Below, in pieces: positions 27,990 to 37,494 of a DNA stretch of 64,000 nucleotides. The notes below the pieces were generated by a model. It ran no database searches and had not been told where the DNA came from. It saw only the letters and a program-made list of their open reading frames with translations. The DNA comes from Saprospirales bacterium. GTDB taxonomy: Bacteria > Bacteroidota > Bacteroidia > Chitinophagales > Saprospiraceae. The stretch covers positions 1 through 64,000 of the forward strand of contig PAAY01000064.1 in the NCBI GenBank assembly GCA_002698985.1, written 5' to 3'. Each line of letters starts with the position of its first letter. The stretch's first letter is position 1. Position numbers and translations under genes: made by a program.

Positions 27990-28568
27990 TTAGATGCCTT
28001 TTGTCTTTTGATTCTCGAGGGCTTGCTTCTCTGATGCCATGATGCTTTCAATCATGGTCTTCAGGGTTTTGCGGGCCTTGAAAAGTTGCGACTTCGAGGT
28101 GCCCTCGTCAATGCCCAACATCTCTGCAATCTCTTTGTGCGAATACCCTTCCACCGCATATAGGTTGAACACGGCCCGGTAACCGGCGGGCAACTGTTGC
28201 AGCAGCTTTGTGAGCGCCCGGGCATTCAGGTCGGCCAGCACATCGCCGCCCGTGTCCAGCTCAGCAGCATTTTCGAGGCTTTCAACCGGAAACAGGCGCT
28301 TCTGCCTGCGCACGTGCATGAGGGCTGCATTCAGTATCACCCTCCGTATCCACCCGCCGAGGGCACCTTCAAAACGGTAGTTTTTCAGATCGTTGAAAAC
28401 TTTCACAAAACCGTCCTGTAGGATGTCTTCGGCCTCCGGCCAATCCCGGGCATAGCGCAAACACAACCTGAACATGGGCACCTTGTACTGTTCGTACAAG
28501 CTCCGCTGTGCGGAAGAGTCGCCTTTGAGGCACTTTCTGACGAGATCATGTTCATCGTTGCGGCTCAA
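27990..28568 (-). CDS. ECF-type RNA polymerase sigma factor
   Basis: Group 4 sigma-70 factor of 192 residues. Region 2 is at about 22-90 with the DWPEAEDILQDGFVKVFNDL segment. Region 4 is at about 125-175 with LPAGYRAVFNLYAVEGYSHKEIAEMLGIDEGTSKSQLFKARKTL, a classic helix-turn-helix. The only in-frame start that keeps region 2 complete is TTG at 28568 (LSRNDEHDL), since no upstream ATG or GTG exists in frame, so low translation efficiency is likely. It heads a minus-strand group with a membrane partner and two penicillin-recognising enzymes, suggesting an envelope-stress regulon. Confidence 0.92.
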   Translation of the reverse strand: MSRNDEHDLVRKCLKGDSSAQRSLYEQYKVPMFRLCLRYARDWPEAEDILQDGFVKVFNDLKNYRFEGALGGWIRRVILNAALMHVRRQKRLFPVESLENAAELDTGGDVLADLNARALTKLLQQLPAGYRAVFNLYAVEGYSHKEIAEMLGIDEGTSKSQLFKARKTLKTMIESIMASEKQALENQKTKGI

Positions 28569-28868
28569 TACCCAAAGTTTGATCGGTGTGTCATTGGCTT
28601 TGGTGCAAGTTAGCGCAAAAAGGTTGCCCGAAGGGCGAAGGAAGGGAGGAGGAACTGAAGCCCCGAAAGCTTTCGGGGGAGGAACTGACGCTGGCAGAGG
28701 TTTGGAACCCTGTCAGCGTTCCTGGTTTATTGAACCCGCCCTTTTTGCAGTGGACTCAGGAATCGAGCATACCTGGCTGAATAGACAAGAAGTGATGGGA
28801 ACAATTGTTCTGTCTTCTGTCAGGCTCTTTTTAGAGGAATTGGTACCTTTAGGTGAAACTATGAACCA
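28569..28868. other. Intergenic region with palindromes, AT-rich module boundary
   Basis: No convincing gene. It contains a perfect 18-base palindrome (CCCCGAAAGCTTTCGGGG) at 28661-28678. An imperfect inverted repeat (ACGCTGGCAGAGGTT with a near-complement) follows at 28688-28719. Base composition shifts from GC-rich to AT-rich towards its right end, where the next two genes begin. The structures may be a degraded short repeat element. Confidence 0.55.
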
Positions 28869-29357
28869 ATGAAAGCAATGTTTGATCGCAGAGGGTATTT
28901 AACTCCTCCTCGCCCAATCGATTGTACACTGGAATTTATCGAAGACAACTTTGTTGATGGAATCCCAGATCTAGCCCATAGAAGAAATTTATTCAATGGC
29001 TATTTATCATTTCTGGACAATCTTGAGAAGGCGGTAAATGCACCATTTGAGCAATGGGTAAACGGAAGTTTTATCAGCAAGAAATTAGTGCCCAGAGATA
29101 TTGATGTGGTCACTTTTATTGATTACAAAATCGTGAGCGCAAATCCGAATATATTTAAAAATCTATCGGGTGAATCTGCTCTTTTGAACTACACCGTAGA
29201 CTCAAACATTGTCAAAGTTTACCCCGAAAACCACAAACATCATATTTTCACAAAGTCTGACAGATTATATTGGTACCATCTTTTCACACATACTGCAAGA
29301 GACAGCAGAGGGAAAAGGCACCAGAAAGGATTTATCAAGATTATTTTTCAACCATGA
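28869..29357 (+). CDS. Nucleotidyltransferase-fold protein (DUF6932-like)
   Basis: Protein of 162 residues that I tentatively place with DUF6932. The core motif of the nucleotidyltransferase superfamily is visible at about 58-71: NGSFISKKLVPRDIDVVTF, i.e. GS followed by DxD, which would bind metal and nucleotide. The N-terminal half is helical (LAHRRNLFNGYLSFLDNLEKAV) and the C-terminus is basic (ARDSRGKRHQKGF). Codons are much richer in A and T than in neighbouring genes, suggesting acquisition. The downstream gene overlaps it by four bases (ATGA), so the two are translated as a pair. Similar folds occur in MNT-type toxin-antitoxin and abortive infection proteins, but no HEPN partner is seen. 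Activity and target are unknown. Confidence 0.72.
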   Translation: MKAMFDRRGYLTPPRPIDCTLEFIEDNFVDGIPDLAHRRNLFNGYLSFLDNLEKAVNAPFEQWVNGSFISKKLVPRDIDVVTFIDYKIVSANPNIFKNLSGESALLNYTVDSNIVKVYPENHKHHIFTKSDRLYWYHLFTHTARDSRGKRHQKGFIKIIFQP

Positions 29358-29656
29358 CCAGGACTCAGACCATAATAATTGAAGACCTTGTTGAACAGAT
29401 CCTGAACACGCAGGAAATGGTCAAGCTTCATCAGGACCACGATGATGAATTCATGGTCGAACAGTATATCTACAGGAGAAACTCTTTTGTCAAGAAGCTT
29501 TTGATCGAACTATTGAAAGTTGAGGAACAGAACCAAAACATAATTCAGGCTATCAAGACATGTGTTAGAATACTTGAAAAGAGCACTCCCGTGCAAAAAG
29601 GGAAAGGCGCCCGCAGTGGTTTAAAAAATCTGGCTTCTTTGGAATCAATAGCCTGA
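29354..29656 (+). CDS. Small helical partner of the nucleotidyltransferase-fold protein
   Basis: Protein of 100 residues, starting at the ATG overlapping the upstream stop (MTRTQTIIIEDLVEQIL). The longer listed frame from 29270 has no better support. It is almost entirely alpha-helical, with heptad-like hydrophobic spacing in VKKLLIELLKVEEQNQNIIQAIKTCVRIL, then a basic, glycine-rich tail (KGKGARSGLKNL). I do not recognise a family. The tight overlap and shared AT-rich composition argue that it works with the upstream protein, for example as a binding partner or inhibitor. Confidence 0.7.
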   Translation: MTRTQTIIIEDLVEQILNTQEMVKLHQDHDDEFMVEQYIYRRNSFVKKLLIELLKVEEQNQNIIQAIKTCVRILEKSTPVQKGKGARSGLKNLASLESIA

Positions 29657-29674: not shown

Positions 29675-29713
29675 AAAAAATGGCAGCCAAAACGAATCTG
29701 GCTGCCATTTTTC
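29675..29713. terminator. Bidirectional terminator
   Basis: The stem ATGGCAGCCA / TGGCTGCCAT is flanked by an A-run on the left and a T-run on the right, so it can act on both strands. It serves the AT-rich gene pair from the left and sprA from the right. Confidence 0.88.
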
Positions 29714-29734: not shown

Positions 29735-32700
29735 TCAATTCAGCGAGAACCTCACCGTCACACCGCTTCGGATGTTGGTGGTGGGATAACCTTGAGAGGT
29801 TTTCGGTTCATTGCGACGATAATCAAAGAAGAAGCGCATGCTGAGCTGTTTGTTGAGCTGGTAGGTCACCTGCGGCAGAATGCTCAGGGTGCGGTTACCG
29901 CGTGAGGGCTCCACAAGGTCGGTGTCAAGCTCGTAAATGCTGGTGATGTCATCGCGCAGCGAGAAATCGAAAGTGATGTCGAGGTCACCTGCCTCTCCCT
30001 GGCCGCGGGAGGCACCGGGGCGGGATGGTTGAGAAGGCTGGTTGTTGTTCGCACCTGGACGACGGCGTTTTTTCTTGGAAGAAAGGAATCCGAAATCCAC
30101 TTCCTTCAGCTTGTAGCCGAATCCGATGGTCAGTTCAGAGCCTTTGGTTTCGTGGAGGCGGTTGTCCACAAAGCCCATGTTCAGTGTACGGCTCTTTTTG
30201 TAATCCACCTTGAAGGACATGTCATTTTTCAGGCGCATATCCACACCCAACAGCGGGCTGAACTGCTCCTGGATCATGATGTTCGGAACCTCGAAACGGG
30301 TGTAAAAATCCAGTTTCGTCTGGTCCTGTTTGGTGGGGTCGTTGAAGTCGTACTGTAGGTTGCTCTGGAAAGAGTTCACCGTCAGGGTTCCCTTGTAGCC
30401 GTGGCTGAGGCTGAAGCTGGAGAAGATCTCGGAAAAGAAAGGCAGCTTCGACAGCCCGTTGTAAGTAAGGCGCCAGTTGGGCTTGGGCAGGGTCTTGATC
30501 AACACGTCGTTGATGAAGTCCGTACTCACATCCATGGTGGCAGCATCCTGTCCGGTGTAGGCAGCCAGGAAGGACGGCACCAGCACGTTTTGCTGGTAGC
30601 GGCCGTAGCCCTTCGGATAACCCAGCGATGCATCTTCGTCGTTGTCATGAACGCCCGTTCCAATGCGCTTGGCCACGACGACCCTGTTGTTCTCAAACTG
30701 GTGGAACAAGCCTACCAGGTCGTCATCGAACAAGGTTTTCAGGGCTGAATATGAAACCGTGAAGGATCCGAAATCGCTCGGAATCAGGTGTTCAAACTCT
30801 TCCTGGAAGCGCTCGTCGGGGTTGCCGAGTATTTTGTTGCGACGGAAAAACTCACTGTGGTTCTCCTGCTTGCTGCGGCTGGCCTCCACATCCACCCGGA
30901 AGTCGCTGAAGGGCTCCAGGGTCAGTTTACCATCCATTTGTTGCTTGTAGTTCTGGGTCACCGGTGCATTCAGCAGCTGGTCACCTGTGATCCACTGCCA
31001 GTTCTTGTAGAGCCAGTCATTGGGGCCGTAGTAGTCATTCAGGTCGATGTTGGGCTGCAAGCCGGCCACGAATCCCCATCCCGGAGAATCGAAACCGTTC
31101 ATTCCAAGTAGATCGGTATTGGGCAGATAGCCCGGCACCACGGTGGCAAAGTCTTCCTGGTAGTTGAGGCGAACCCTGCGCACCAGCATCAGCGGGCGGA
31201 TGAGGGCTTTTTCAATGGAACTTGGTCCGGTTTGCTTTTGCCGTTGGTTGTTGCGGCCCTGCGTATTGGGCCGGCGGCGGTCAGATTCTTCCTGAGCTCC
31301 CTGGCGGCTGCGGCTGCGGGTTTGTACCCGTCCGCGACGCTTGGTGTTGATACTCTTAAGGTAGTCGGAATAATTGTAGAGTTTTTCAAAATCGAAATCC
31401 CCGTTGATTTGGCGGTTCTGACCATTGCGGATGATGTTGCCGAGGCTGCGGGCACTGGGTGCCTGGCTGGCAGCATCCCAGCCGTAATTGGCCCGGTAGC
31501 TGGCCTTCACATTCACCCAGTCGAGGAATGGGAAGTTCTTCAGCGGTACATTGTAGGTCAGATTGATGTTGTGCTGGTAGCTCTTTGTACGGCCAAAATC
31601 CCGGATGCTTTGCCACACTGAATCCCGGCGGTATTGCCCGATGTCAGAAATGTACATGGGATCGGTGCTAGGCAGCATGGAGCGTTGCAGCATCAGGGTT
31701 TCGTCGGGTTCGTCGATCACTCCCCGGTTGTCGGCGTTGAACTGGAACTTCAGGTTCTTCGTCAAATCCCAGTTCAGGTCGTAATTCCGGTTCCAGAGGA
31801 ATTGCTTGTTGTAATAGGTATTGAACAGCGGATTGGTGCCGGCAAAGCGGTACTTGGTGGTATTGAAACGGCGATCGAGGTCCGTGCTGAAGCTGAAGGA
31901 ATTGGGCAGCGGATTGAAGTTGATCTCACGGATAAACTTCAGGGCCTTATTGTCGCTGCCTATCACTTCCTTGAACGGTTCGATGTAACCAGCCCGTCGG
32001 CTGTAGGTGTAATCGATGGCCCCTCTCCGGCGGGTCAGCACATCGCTCTCGATGATGGGGTCCCGGCGGGTGGTCTCGTCAAAGGCGTAGGTGAAGCTGA
32101 AGTTGGCAATGTCCCAAGGCATGGGCTTCTTATCCGGCCTCGTTCGCTCCTTCCGCACATTGGTAAAGTTGTAACTCTTGATCTCGGTCACCGTCTGTGC
32201 CTGCTCCTTTATCTGGTCCTTTTCTTCCTGTGTGTCGGCTGCCGCCAACTTTTCTTTCAGCTCGATGTCCAGGTCGTAGGGGTCGAATTGCGGATTGCGG
32301 GTTTCTTTGGAATACTGAAAGTAAAATGGTAGACGAATGCCCGTGTTGCCCGGAATGAACTTGGACAGTTCCAGGCTGGTAGCAATGTCGTACTGGGTGA
32401 TCTCCTCCCGGCTCCGCTCGGCCAGTTGCTGGTCCAGCGCACCATAACCAATGCTGGAATACTTGGTGGAGAAGGTGAAGGTTCCCAGGTCGGCCATTTG
32501 CAGGTCAATGCGGGCCGTGGCAGCCACCCCACCCCGCTCGTCGAGGCCGAAAACGCGCAGCTCGTTCACCCAAACTTCCACGCTCTTCTTGTCGGCGGGG
32601 TCACAACCGGAGCCCTGTATGGGATTCCGCACACCCACCATGATAGACTTCACCAGACCCAGGTTCGGGTTACCCTTGATACTCACCCTGGCATCGGGCC

Positions 32701-35700
32701 GGTCGGGGTCGTTTTCAATGTAAAGGTCGCCTACGGCAACACCGCTGCCGTTCCGGTTGATCTTGATTTGCTTCAGCAACTCGAAGTTGATGTTGAAATC
32801 GTTTTCAGCCGGCCAAACCACCCGCGGGTATTCGGGCGCATTGTAAGGCACCGTAAAGTCGTTGGAGATCTTCAGCGGAATCTCGTATTCGTAAAAGTTG
32901 TTCTTGAAGTCGGAACCGATGCGGATAAACACGCTCAATTCACCATCCTGGATGTCCTCCAGTCCACTGCCGCAGTCGTTGGGCTCGGCATGAACGAACA
33001 TCTTCAGCTTTGATAAGACACGCAGGTCCAGGTTCAGGTTTTTGAAAATACCGCGGGCGTCGCCGTCTTCCAGGTCGCAAATTTCTATGGCCAGCGCTTG
33101 CTCGTTTTGCAGGGCATTGATGTTGACACCCAGGGCCTGCTCACGGCTGATGCCCGGCGGCAGGGCGTAACCAAATGGCTGGCGCTGGCTGTTCTCCTCG
33201 ATGTTGACGGCATTCACCTCAAATTGTGTCTGGTCGAAATCGCTGGGATCAACACCCAGGCAGGTTTCACCGAGGGGCTGCTGGTAGCGGCGCCACTGGT
33301 TGCGCACCAGCTCCAGCGTTGCGAAGCGAAAGTTCACCTTTTTGCGGAAGCCCTTGAAATACATCCGCATGAAGCGAATGGAACGGAAGTCCTGAATACC
33401 ACCCACTTTCTTGAAGTTCGGGTCGGTTTCCAACAAATTCAGCGGAACCCGGAAGCGGTACCAGATGCGCCGGTCGTCTTCAGAAACGATTGACTCGGTA
33501 ATGAATGGGTTGCCCTCCGTCTCGATTCCACGGTCACCGTCGTATTTGATGGGGATGCGGTATTGGAAATAGCTTTCGGTTTCATTCAGGGTCCTGTCGC
33601 CGTCCAGGTCTTCGGCATCCGGCAACTGCGTGGACGACATCACGAAGGTGCTACCGGTGTTCTCGGGGGTGTTGCCCTCCGTTCCGAAAAAGCGGCTGTA
33701 GCGCTCCAGCACCGGCGTATCGTCGGGGAAATCACGGTAGTGAACAAAGTTGTCATTGGAGGGGTCGGCTTCTATCTGTGCGTAAACCGCCGGCGACACC
33801 CCGCCCTGCACGGCCGCCAGGTAATTGGCAAATTTTTGTCGCTCCCCATCGTCATTCAATCCGTCGAGGCCCACGTCCTGTGCCCGGCGGTTCTCAACAT
33901 CGATGTCGAAGGCGTTGGTGATCTGCTGCGACAGCGGCACCCGCCCCCACTGGGTTTCCGTGGTGCGGCGCCCTTGTGTATTCGGGCCCGGCAAACCGTT
34001 TTCGAAGAACTTCCGGCTGTCCGGCATGATGTCCTCCGACACGTTTCCGAGGTTGAAATAAATGTACCCGTCCATGCCTCCGTCGGCGGCTTCGGGGTTA
34101 CCGCCGATGGCACCGGTGGTGTCCAGGTAGGGGCTCATCATCCAGAACTCGATGAACTCGATGTTGGCCGCCTGAAAGTCGTTGGTGTTGAGGGCTCGCA
34201 TGATACCTGCCCAGCGGGTCTCCGGTGCCAGCAGGCTACCGTCGGAATCCAAGCCGGCAGAATAGGGCGTACCACCCGGCACATCAAAGTTGTACGAACC
34301 GCGCCGTGCCGGATCGTAGTTGATGTCGAATATCTGTGCATAGGTATCACCAAACTGCTGGGTGGGCGTGAAGTTGGGGAAGATCTCCTGCTGGCGGATG
34401 GGCAAGGTGTAAGGATTGCCCTGGTCAACGCCCTGGTTCCGCAAACTCGGGTCTATCCGGAACCAGCTCACATAAGCCCGGTTGACGCCCGGATAGGTTG
34501 TATCGGTGCGCTCCGCTTCGGGAAACATCGGATTGTTGTTGTTCTCGTCGTTGCGCGGCACACTGGCCAGCACCCAACCGTTGTTGCCGATGAAGGGACT
34601 GCGCAAGTCTATGCTGGAAACACTGCCTTCAAAGTCATCGAGGTACACCACCCCACCTTTGTCTTTGTCGTCGGCCGTGTCTTCGTTAATGGCTTTGGAG
34701 TGGCCGGGTTTCAGTGCGGCCGTTTCGGCAGAAAAGGTGATGGTTGATTTTTCCTTCGTAGAATACAGCGGCAGCTTGTCCACCAGCCTGGTGAGCCAGG
34801 GGGCTTCATTGCTGTAATTCACGTCGAGTCCGAAAATCCGGTTGTTGATGGGGTCGTCGCCGATGTTCACCTTTTGGGTGTAAGGGCGCTCGAAGAGGTG
34901 CAGGTAAGTGGCCCCCAGGGTCACGTGCTTGTTGAGGGTGTAATCAGCCCGCAAACCGAGCATGGTTTTCGTCTGAAAACCGAACAGGGTGTTGTCTTCA
35001 AAAGACACCTTGATGGGCACCCCGGCATTCAGGATGGCATCGTTGAGGATCTTCACCCGGCCGATGTTGTAATCCACTTCGTAATCCACACCTTCGCGCA
35101 AAATCTGCCCGCCGGCACTTACGGAAACGGAGCCGGGTGGAATGTTGAAGGCTCCGAGCGAAATTTCCGACGAAACAGAACTCTTGTAACTACCCTCGAT
35201 GGTGAAGCGGTTGAACTCGGCAAACTCCCTCGCCACAAACTGGGTATTGTCGTAGAGCTGGGAGTACACGAATTTGGCGGAGTCAGCAGGGTTGTCGAAT
35301 TGCTCTGCCAGGGCGCTGCCAAAAGGCTCCAGCTTCGGGAAGATGATTCGGCCGTTGCGGGTGTTGATGGTGACCCCTTCTACGAAGTCGAACACCCCAT
35401 CGGGTTGGGGATCGTTCTGTACGTTCAGCCGGTCCAGGTTGAACACCCGCAGCAGCGGTATGCCCGCCAGGTTGGTTTCCGGAAGGAAGCGCTTCTTGCC
35501 CTCGCCGGGGTCTTCGTAATAAATGTCCAATTTGAAATCCTCCCTCGACACGTTGAAAGCGCCGATGGAGTACACGTTTTTCATCATCAGGTCCCAGGTC
35601 GGCAGGTCTACCGGCTGGGTGGTACCCTTCAGCATTTTCACGAAGAGCACGTTCTGGGTGGTGGTGTCGGTGTTTTGCGGGATGTCTTCGGCAATTTCAC

Positions 35701-37219
35701 CCACCTGGTAAACGCTGTCGCCGTAAGAATACTCAAATGCGATACCCACCACCTGGTCGGGCTGGATGTTCACGTTGAGCGAGATGAATCCGAGGTTGGG
35801 GTGGTAGGTGAACTCCGTCGGAGAAAGCTGGCGGGCGGTCACCTTTTCAAAGTCGCGGCCCTGTTGCAGGTTGAATCCGGGGCCGCGCAATTCGTTCACC
35901 ACCTTCTCGACCGTACGGGTGCGGCGGTCTGCCAGCAGTTTTCCGTAGATGGGGTTGGCATTGTTGTCGGGCAGCGGGTCGCCGTTCAGGTCGGTGAAAA
36001 CGGGCACGGCCGGCGGCTGCAAGTCGGGATTGGTATTGGTGGTGCGGGTGGTTTCACCCAGGTCGGCAATGGCCACGATGTTACGGATGTTCTCGGTGGC
36101 GTTCCGTGTGTCGGTCACCCACACCTGAATGTTCTGCACCGTGAACAGGGTTTTGATCTGCGGCAGTTCGCTCAGGGCATCCTCAAAGTGGTTGCGGTTG
36201 TAATGCGTGAGGAAGAAGTGGCGGTTTTCGTCGTACTCGTCGGCAAACACTTCAAAAGTCTGGAACTGGCTGCCACCCTGCAGGGTGATCTCCTCCCGCT
36301 CTGACTTCTGTTGCGAAGCGACGGTGGTCAGCCGCAAGCGGCCAAACTGCATTTCTGTTTTCAGACCGAACAAACTCTGGCTGCCCTGGATGAGGGTTCC
36401 GCGCAGCGGGAGGCTCACATTACCGGCCTCTATTTTCTTGATGATGTCGTCTTCGCCAAAAGCATCGGTGTTGTAATCGAGCTTCATGGTGTTGTCGAAG
36501 TCGAAAGTAGCCTGGGTATTGTAGTTGGTAGAGAGCTTCAGCTTCTTACCGATGGAGCCCTGCACGTTCATCTGGATGCCCATGTCGAAGTCGAATCCAC
36601 CCTGACGCTGCTGGCGCTGGGTGAAGCTGGGGTTCTTGATGTTGGAGAACTCCACCCCGAAAGTCAGATCGATGTTACCCTGCGGGCGGATGTCCACCTC
36701 AGTGCCGCCAAAGAGGCGGTCGATGAGCTGGTTTTTGACATCGACTTCCTGAATGGGGTCCAGCCTGCCGGTGCTGCTGCCGCCGGAGCTGAGCCCTGCC
36801 AGGTCGCGGAAATACTGGGTTTCCTGCTGTTTGGAGCGGTATTCCAGGTACTCCTCAAAAGTCATGTATGTGGGCGGGCGGAAATAGTACTCACCCACGC
36901 TCTCGGTGATGATGTATTGCCCTGTTTCGGGGTCGTACTCTACGTTCTTCTCAATAGCAGGGGGATCCTGCAGATCGAAGGGGTTGGGAGTTGTGTGAAG
37001 AAAATCGTCGTAACGTTCCTCAATGGGGATGGTGTCCTGTGGCGGGGTTTGTGGTTCAGGTGTGGGGTCTTCCTTTGCCGGCTGCTCATCAGCTGCGGCC
37101 AGCACATTGGCTGGGGTGAAGGGGTTGGCCGGCAGATTGGGGTTGGCCAACAACCAGATACTCAATGAAAAAACCAGTCCTGTCACTAATACGCCGGGTA
37201 AAACTGTACGCTTCATCAT
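29735..37219 (-). CDS. sprA: T9SS outer-membrane translocon SprA
   Basis: Very large outer-membrane protein, about 2495 residues, that forms the secretion channel of the type IX secretion system (SprA/Sov). I start at the ATG pair 37219/37216 (MMKRTVLPG) rather than the TTG listed at 37234. A signal peptide precedes a proline-rich segment. The rest is beta-strand-rich with family landmarks: VDIRPQGNIDLTFG, GNVSLPLRGTLIQGSQSLFGLK, KGGVVYLDDFEGS, and NPIQGSGCDPADKKSVEVWVNELRVFGLDERGGVA. It ends with a strand typical of barrel proteins (RSGVTVRFSLN). The length is close to F. johnsoniae SprA (about 2400). ruvA lies upstream, an order I recall from other Bacteroidota. It would export the sorted proteins encoded in this window. 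Confidence 0.96.
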   Translation of the reverse strand: MMKRTVLPGVLVTGLVFSLSIWLLANPNLPANPFTPANVLAAADEQPAKEDPTPEPQTPPQDTIPIEERYDDFLHTTPNPFDLQDPPAIEKNVEYDPETGQYIITESVGEYYFRPPTYMTFEEYLEYRSKQQETQYFRDLAGLSSGGSSTGRLDPIQEVDVKNQLIDRLFGGTEVDIRPQGNIDLTFGVEFSNIKNPSFTQRQQRQGGFDFDMGIQMNVQGSIGKKLKLSTNYNTQATFDFDNTMKLDYNTDAFGEDDIIKKIEAGNVSLPLRGTLIQGSQSLFGLKTEMQFGRLRLTTVASQQKSEREEITLQGGSQFQTFEVFADEYDENRHFFLTHYNRNHFEDALSELPQIKTLFTVQNIQVWVTDTRNATENIRNIVAIADLGETTRTTNTNPDLQPPAVPVFTDLNGDPLPDNNANPIYGKLLADRRTRTVEKVVNELRGPGFNLQQGRDFEKVTARQLSPTEFTYHPNLGFISLNVNIQPDQVVGIAFEYSYGDSVYQVGEIAEDIPQNTDTTTQNVLFVKMLKGTTQPVDLPTWDLMMKNVYSIGAFNVSREDFKLDIYYEDPGEGKKRFLPETNLAGIPLLRVFNLDRLNVQNDPQPDGVFDFVEGVTINTRNGRIIFPKLEPFGSALAEQFDNPADSAKFVYSQLYDNTQFVAREFAEFNRFTIEGSYKSSVSSEISLGAFNIPPGSVSVSAGGQILREGVDYEVDYNIGRVKILNDAILNAGVPIKVSFEDNTLFGFQTKTMLGLRADYTLNKHVTLGATYLHLFERPYTQKVNIGDDPINNRIFGLDVNYSNEAPWLTRLVDKLPLYSTKEKSTITFSAETAALKPGHSKAINEDTADDKDKGGVVYLDDFEGSVSSIDLRSPFIGNNGWVLASVPRNDENNNNPMFPEAERTDTTYPGVNRAYVSWFRIDPSLRNQGVDQGNPYTLPIRQQEIFPNFTPTQQFGDTYAQIFDINYDPARRGSYNFDVPGGTPYSAGLDSDGSLLAPETRWAGIMRALNTNDFQAANIEFIEFWMMSPYLDTTGAIGGNPEAADGGMDGYIYFNLGNVSEDIMPDSRKFFENGLPGPNTQGRRTTETQWGRVPLSQQITNAFDIDVENRRAQDVGLDGLNDDGERQKFANYLAAVQGGVSPAVYAQIEADPSNDNFVHYRDFPDDTPVLERYSRFFGTEGNTPENTGSTFVMSSTQLPDAEDLDGDRTLNETESYFQYRIPIKYDGDRGIETEGNPFITESIVSEDDRRIWYRFRVPLNLLETDPNFKKVGGIQDFRSIRFMRMYFKGFRKKVNFRFATLELVRNQWRRYQQPLGETCLGVDPSDFDQTQFEVNAVNIEENSQRQPFGYALPPGISREQALGVNINALQNEQALAIEICDLEDGDARGIFKNLNLDLRVLSKLKMFVHAEPNDCGSGLEDIQDGELSVFIRIGSDFKNNFYEYEIPLKISNDFTVPYNAPEYPRVVWPAENDFNINFELLKQIKINRNGSGVAVGDLYIENDPDRPDARVSIKGNPNLGLVKSIMVGVRNPIQGSGCDPADKKSVEVWVNELRVFGLDERGGVAATARIDLQMADLGTFTFSTKYSSIGYGALDQQLAERSREEITQYDIATSLELSKFIPGNTGIRLPFYFQYSKETRNPQFDPYDLDIELKEKLAAADTQEEKDQIKEQAQTVTEIKSYNFTNVRKERTRPDKKPMPWDIANFSFTYAFDETTRRDPIIESDVLTRRRGAIDYTYSRRAGYIEPFKEVIGSDNKALKFIREINFNPLPNSFSFSTDLDRRFNTTKYRFAGTNPLFNTYYNKQFLWNRNYDLNWDLTKNLKFQFNADNRGVIDEPDETLMLQRSMLPSTDPMYISDIGQYRRDSVWQSIRDFGRTKSYQHNINLTYNVPLKNFPFLDWVNVKASYRANYGWDAASQAPSARSLGNIIRNGQNRQINGDFDFEKLYNYSDYLKSINTKRRGRVQTRSRSRQGAQEESDRRRPNTQGRNNQRQKQTGPSSIEKALIRPLMLVRRVRLNYQEDFATVVPGYLPNTDLLGMNGFDSPGWGFVAGLQPNIDLNDYYGPNDWLYKNWQWITGDQLLNAPVTQNYKQQMDGKLTLEPFSDFRVDVEASRSKQENHSEFFRRNKILGNPDERFQEEFEHLIPSDFGSFTVSYSALKTLFDDDLVGLFHQFENNRVVVAKRIGTGVHDNDEDASLGYPKGYGRYQQNVLVPSFLAAYTGQDAATMDVSTDFINDVLIKTLPKPNWRLTYNGLSKLPFFSEIFSSFSLSHGYKGTLTVNSFQSNLQYDFNDPTKQDQTKLDFYTRFEVPNIMIQEQFSPLLGVDMRLKNDMSFKVDYKKSRTLNMGFVDNRLHETKGSELTIGFGYKLKEVDFGFLSSKKKRRRPGANNNQPSQPSRPGASRGQGEAGDLDITFDFSLRDDITSIYELDTDLVEPSRGNRTLSILPQVTYQLNKQLSMRFFFDYRRNEPKTSQGYPTTNIRSGVTVRFSLN

Positions 37220-37494
37220 AATCGTAGTGGGCAATAGCTTCGAATTCTTCAGGGTAGTACAAAGTCGTTTTTGCAGATAGGCAAGGCAGGAAAGAAACCT
37301 TCCCCCATCCTGAAATGAGGGTTTTACGCAAGCTTACCGGAATGGTTGGGTTGAAAATGTAATTTATCTCCAGTAAATGAAATTGGTTATCGAATCCCGC
37401 AGTTGCCCGCAATTTTTTTGACACGCCCTGAACGCCTGGCATCAGGGCTATTTTCTAAGCTTTCGGACTTTAACGTTTCGGCGTCGCCCCTTTG

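Follow-up and report, generated by a model that had tools for sequence, protein, structure and literature searches.

A candidate toxin-antitoxin-type pair of a DUF6932 nucleotidyltransferase and a small helical partner in a Saprospirales bacterium

In the MenAT1 system of M. tuberculosis, the nucleotidyltransferase toxin MenT1 is silenced by MenA1, a 68-residue, two-helix protein without a DNA-binding domain, and sister systems use larger partners (PMC10435456). Which member of such a pair is the toxin cannot always be read from its annotation: in PD-lambda-2, an Xre-peptidase abortive infection system, the upstream toxin-like gene turned out to be the antitoxin (PMC9519451), so that domain names can mislead on which partner is toxic. 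A third system, PDC-M63, consists of a DUF6932 protein (PDC-M63A) and a partner of about 310 residues (PDC-M63B). It is a candidate and as yet unproven defence system; removing PDC-M63AB from E. coli NILS69 left the plating of ten phages unchanged (PMC12409345). Our literature search found no paper naming DUF6932 and no measurement of toxicity, binding or defence for any DUF6932 protein. The domain is nevertheless common, and a survey of its relatives supplies a testable function together with a minimal partner that would be quick to assay.

We analyzed a 64,000-nucleotide stretch of a Saprospirales genome (assembly GCA_002698985.1, contig PAAY01000064.1; hereafter the window) that contains two short overlapping genes, A and B (Table 1). 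An earlier note had likened the pair to toxin-antitoxin or abortive infection modules and suggested that it might be a new type. The likeness is upheld by the toxin-antitoxin- and defense-type contexts described below. An unrecognized type is not supported: A is a known domain of unknown function belonging to a known candidate system, and what is new is B and its family.

An inserted module and its nucleotidyltransferase gene

The two genes share a common ATGA and, as the earlier note had recognized, form an AT-rich pair between GC-richer genes. The GC content of the module is 38.8%, compared with 53.5% for the window, and values this low occur in 5 of 317 equal-sized segments. The neighbors, named from our reading of the sequence without a family search, are presumably an ECF-type sigma factor gene and an SprA-like gene. 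The module adjoins sprA in two of 14 genomes of the genus, that of the window and that of a sister species, G568, in which the tail of SprA is 97% identical; a scan of genome contigs likewise gave a match only in the sister MAG. In the congener G959 (79% identical), the sigma frame starts 128 nt past the sprA stop and the gap is empty, compared with a distance of about 1.17 kb in the window. Because the congener gap is empty while the sister carries the module, A and B are an insertion between sprA and the sigma gene that predates the split of the two close species. Within the toxin-antitoxin reading the pair would have been acquired horizontally, a proposal that we regard as evenly balanced.

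Table 1. Features of the A/B module and its surroundings in the window.
Feature	Position	Strand	Remark
ECF-type sigma factor gene (presumed)	27990-28568	minus	left neighbor of module
Dispersed palindrome CCCCGAAAGCTTTCGGGG	28661..28678	.	left of module and outside it; 39 genome copies
Gene A (candidate toxin, PDC-M63A-like DUF6932 protein)	28869..29357	+	162 aa, nucleotidyltransferase core
GSx9DxD catalytic motif	29064..29105	+	codons G66-S67 to D77-x-D79; conservation scored in 61 relatives
D111, probable third acidic active-site residue of A	29199..29201	+	D/E in 59/61 relatives
Gene B (candidate labile antitoxin, helical hairpin)	29354..29656	+	100 aa from ATG at 29354
ATGA, overlap of A stop and B start	29354..29357	+	4 nt
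C-terminal Ser-Ile-Ala of B	29645..29653	+	site of relatives' Ala-Ala
Probable bidirectional terminator (A/T-flanked inverted repeat)	29676..29712	.	between B and sprA
SprA-like gene (presumed)	29735-37234	minus	2,499 aa; 3' end facing module from right

The two edges of the module differ in what they can tell us. The palindromes on the left had been taken for its border, a role that we reject: CCCCGAAAGCTTTCGGGG occurs at 39 genomic sites with at most one mismatch, its reversed control at none, and three copies lie 112 nt apart on a single contig (G000, C52; at 37, 149 and 261). It is a REP-like dispersed repeat. The inverted repeat on the right is real, with 14-nt arms (29676-29689 and 29699-29712) that are 100% complementary around a 9-nt loop. 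It was missed by a simple terminator scan; a terminator common to B and sprA is plausible here.

Gene A matches Pfam DUF6932 (PF22014) with a score above the curated cut-off (97.7 bits against 27; E 1.1e-27) across the whole domain, profile positions 3-141 of 142, and it also matches the PADLOC candidate PDC-M63A (E 1.9e-15) and PHROG 9194 (E 1.5e-18). The GS...DxD core on which the earlier note had based a nucleotidyltransferase assignment is conserved throughout the family: G66 and D79 are found in 61/61 relatives, D77 in 60/61 and S67 in 59/61, and 48 of the 61 keep the GSx9DxD spacing. R38 and G154 are invariant as well, and F68, P75 and K153 join S67 and D77 as nearly invariant positions. 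Several family members are also recognized by Pfam nucleotidyltransferase-type profiles (Polbeta in 12/61, NTP_transf_2 in 6/61 with a best E of 2.5e-5, DNA_pol_B_palm in 3/61), and the best PDB match of the family profile is the nucleotidyltransferase CdnE (E 0.059). The AlphaFold2 model of A is confident (pLDDT 97.6, pTM 0.91). Foldseek found weak matches of the model in the PDB (TM about 0.3, E about 0.1), the named top ones being mostly nucleotidyltransferases, and the named matches in a viral fold library are divergent nucleotidyltransferases only. The catalytic residues and the Pfam matches of its relatives, with weak support from Foldseek, thus place A in the Pol-beta superfamily. We are confident that it is a nucleotidyltransferase and suggest, from its sequence, that it is a divergent and probably active one. 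At one locus (L025:1486-2652) a single protein joins the DUF6932 domain to one that resembles alpha/beta hydrolases (Hydrolase_4, E 8.2e-5), and a further ORF, of 114 aa, lies downstream.

DUF6932 partners and the B family

Counting matches above the family cut-off, DUF6932 occurs in 24 of the 396 Bacteroidota genomes sampled and, within the order, in 34 of 399. In nearly all of about 70 loci a second gene lies directly 3' of it, a co-occurrence that the earlier note had proposed as a check and that takes the pairing beyond chance. Where the partner is small, B starts between -40 and +30 nt from the stop of A in 36 of 38 loci, a count that is biased upward because B starts were chosen near that stop. 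Four classes of partner can be told apart: small helical proteins (65-146 aa), in the order to which the window belongs; HTH proteins of the Xre type, about 150 aa long; proteins of 424-483 aa that combine Xre and M78 peptidase domains, one of which matches PD-Lambda-2_B (E 1.4e-77); and a class of 303-328 aa, whose one tested member, from a prophage, matches PDC-M63B (E 4e-42). The Xre HTH and Xre-M78 partners, which belong to other taxa, have antitoxin-type architectures. An N-terminal hairpin common to the small, HTH and 310-aa partners seems likely by eye; we do not claim it, since it scores weakly in profile comparisons (hmmsearch E of 0.001-0.01 at best, hhalign probability no higher than 6.5%). 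In prophages of Escherichia, Erwinia and Klebsiella, cI is followed immediately by DUF6932 and the 310-aa partner, at a site occupied by rexAB in lambda and by bstA in BTP1 (PMC8585504). Of the 5,426 complete genomes of E. coli, 96 carry the prophage form, and the 4-nt overlap recurs in lambdoid prophages.

We considered whether this arrangement might reflect a sensor-effector defense pair, in which B or the larger partners would sense infection and switch on A, and A would then modify host or phage molecules. A constant A beside widely varying partners would suit such a scheme, as would the position of the prophage copies next to cI. The neighborhoods of 20 modules point the same way: 140 neighboring proteins gave matches to 105 PADLOC models, among them those for a DRT reverse transcriptase and for Cas6/Cas7, and 140 control proteins to 18, the counts being of models rather than of proteins. 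This excess is only a hint of a defense role. PDC-M63AB had no defense activity in the one test, however, and the degron-like tail of B and the survival of intact B beside broken A, both discussed below, are more in keeping with an antidote than with a sensor. We therefore regard the sensor-effector scheme as possible and rather doubtful.

The second gene conforms to the earlier description of a 100-residue helical protein with no recognized family. Searches of Pfam and NCBIfam yielded no family for B, and weak matches to PADLOC NsnC (E 1.4e-4, residues 4-78) and to Pfam Tubulin_C (E 0.023) were set aside as chance coiled-coil matches. AlphaFold2 predicts helices at 3-28, 32-54, 61-77 and 91-97 (pLDDT 85.1), i.e. 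a helical hairpin followed by further helices toward the C terminus. The structure prediction that had been proposed as a check therefore bears out a helical B and a confident A whose matches are mostly nucleotidyltransferases, but the matches of A are weak and the structure search with B gave nothing significant. The positions conserved most are I16, Q37, Y38 and L49. The B profile matches 55 of 298 genomes of the host's family, and a scan of viral contigs gave one weak match only. We collected 103 distinct B proteins, of which 73 lie in stretches that also hold DUF6932 and 30 in stretches without A. B represents a new family of small helical hairpins, described by none of the libraries searched and taking the place of the 310-aa or HTH partners used elsewhere.

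At some loci B genes are repeated in tandem after A, in up to three copies (L055, L073, L128 and L144), a multiplication that resembles immunity-gene arrays. Divergent arrays of two to three genes are seen at L144 (G941:C223), L055/L131 (G736:C258) and L073, and at L144 there are two copies of A, with a separate B array behind each.

The copies of B found without A raise the question of how specific B is. At L116, L117 and L133 it is the third gene, 14-21 nt past a ParE toxin whose short upstream gene is a probable ordinary antitoxin; elsewhere it follows Uma2 nucleases (L124, L125), XisI (L113) or an MNT gene (L138; E 6.4e-15 to PDB MNT), and some copies adjoin ordinary genes. B may therefore be a general accessory of many toxin modules, such as a proteolysis-linked adaptor or regulator, rather than the specific antidote of A. 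There is a precedent in PD-lambda-2, whose third gene is needed for defense and not for neutralization (PMC9519451). On the other side, the 73 B genes that share a stretch with DUF6932 usually do so at translational-coupling spacing, and we noticed no other antitoxin gene in those 73 stretches. Weighing these observations, we find a generic accessory improbable.

Loss patterns, the tail of B and a proposed mechanism

In seven loci (L077, L081, L102, L053, L149, L137 and L092), A is broken by stops, frameshifts or truncation and lies beside an open B. Together with an IS3-interrupted prophage copy, described below, and the occurrence of B without A, this argues that B is safe alone. The asymmetry of the seven loci is only suggestive: with A twice the length of B, seven breaks in A and none in B would arise by chance with a probability of (490/710)^7, or about 0.08, and some of the breaks may be assembly errors.

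Two of the disrupted copies can be described further. In the sister species G568 (L002:362-948 / L077), an in-frame TAG and an insertion of about 100 bp interrupt A, and B is intact; the inserted segment is rich in inverted GC stretches and is perhaps a small palindromic element. In a prophage of E. coli OkiPb01716 (L224, 1298-3961), an IS3 element has replaced the last residues of DUF6932, with the downstream partner intact.

The direction of loss also bears on whether the roles might be reversed, with A acting as an antitoxin that nucleotidylates a toxic B in the manner in which MntA polyadenylylates HepT. The nucleotidyltransferase core of A is intact, MNT chains are among its weak Foldseek matches, and the near-invariant Gln-Tyr of B (Y38 in 33/37) could accept AMP. 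The persistence of intact B beside broken or absent A would be unexpected of a toxin, however. Moreover, the HEPN motif (RX4-6HXY) occurs in 0/103 B members, on which ground we rejected a HEPN partner, and the spacing in A is GSx9DxD rather than the GSx10DxD of MNT (PMC7641770). We consider such a reversal unlikely.

The C terminus of B provides a possible explanation for how an antidote of this kind could be short-lived. Ala-Ala, a candidate ssrA-like C-motif for ClpXP, ends 62 of the 103 B members, and 72 of 103 have a final Ala; the commonest tails are Leu/Ile/Val/Glu/Lys/Gln-Ala-Ala. Such an ending is rare in control sets: one of 252 flanking proteins with a length of 200 aa or more has it, and none of 71 A proteins or of 29 large partners does. 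The tail is found in 10 of 19 B clusters formed at 40% identity with the last three residues left out of clustering, and on a tree of 84 tips its state changes at least 16 times by parsimony, so that Ala-Ala has been kept or regained and not merely inherited. According to one review, ClpXP prefers two C-terminal alanines, and antitoxin C termini show no consensus degron other than a stretch of small hydrophobic residues in HicB (PMC4963847). The host itself encodes ClpX and a tmRNA tag, GNYQYAMAA, that ends in AMAA. The B protein of the window ends in ...LESIA, with a single Ala, that of its closest relative, the sister, in ...LESIV, and two relatives at about 45% identity (L039 and L062) in ...PLAA; the tail is thus reduced in the lineage of the window. 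The degron step is thus weakest for the window's own copy.

We suggest that A and B form a toxin-antitoxin-type pair of the PDC-M63 kind, with A as the toxin and B as a labile antitoxin, a reading to which we give an even chance. Free A would transfer nucleotides to a vital target, either tRNA or protein, and growth would stop. B, made right after A through coupled translation and without a DNA-binding domain, would bind A directly and so inhibit it, in the way that the two-helix MenA1 acts on MenT1. The Ala-Ala tail would make most B relatives ClpXP substrates, such that B would need continuous synthesis and its failure, e.g. during phage takeover, would free A. With Ala-Ala at the end of most family members, the idea that the antitoxin is unstable would be directly testable via two residues. 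A broader and more speculative proposal, which we think doubtful, is that the small B proteins are an undescribed family of plug-in antidotes with an ssrA-mimicking tail, serving unrelated toxins (DUF6932, ParE, Uma2 and MNT-linked) and having their lifetime set by ClpXP. If true, B would couple toxin release to the proteolysis and translation state of the host.

Comparison with known systems

The pair is best described, from its sequence matches, as a PDC-M63-like variant. A matches PDC-M63A, and the two-gene organization, gene order and, in prophage copies, the 4-nt overlap are alike; B, at 100 aa, matches no PDC-M63B model, so that the pair as a whole falls outside PDC-M63. With PD-lambda-2 the connection is made by the DUF6932 genes of some Bacteroidota, which lie ahead of an Xre-M78 protein with a match to PD-Lambda-2_B in its C-terminal part. 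The first gene of PD-lambda-2 is HigB-like, however, and not a nucleotidyltransferase, and the B protein of the window has neither an Xre nor an M78 domain.

HEPN/MNT (HepT/MntA) modules likewise comprise two genes with a nucleotidyltransferase core, but motif spacing, the lack of RX4HXY in all 103 partners and the opposite loss pattern lead us to disfavor this identity. A relation to AbiE or MenAT finds no match to AbiEii-type or AbiEi/COG5340-type models in Pfam, PADLOC or NCBIfam, in keeping with the earlier view that the partner resembles neither HEPN nor AbiEi proteins. DUF6932 is a different nucleotidyltransferase family from that of MenT1, A matches no PADLOC AbiE model, and the likeness of B to MenA1 is one of size and helical build rather than of sequence. 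In both cases, however, a nucleotidyltransferase is accompanied by a very small helical protein without a DNA-binding domain, and relatives have larger partners. A MenA1-like mode of action for B is possible, and MenAT1 is the closest working model for the A/B pair.
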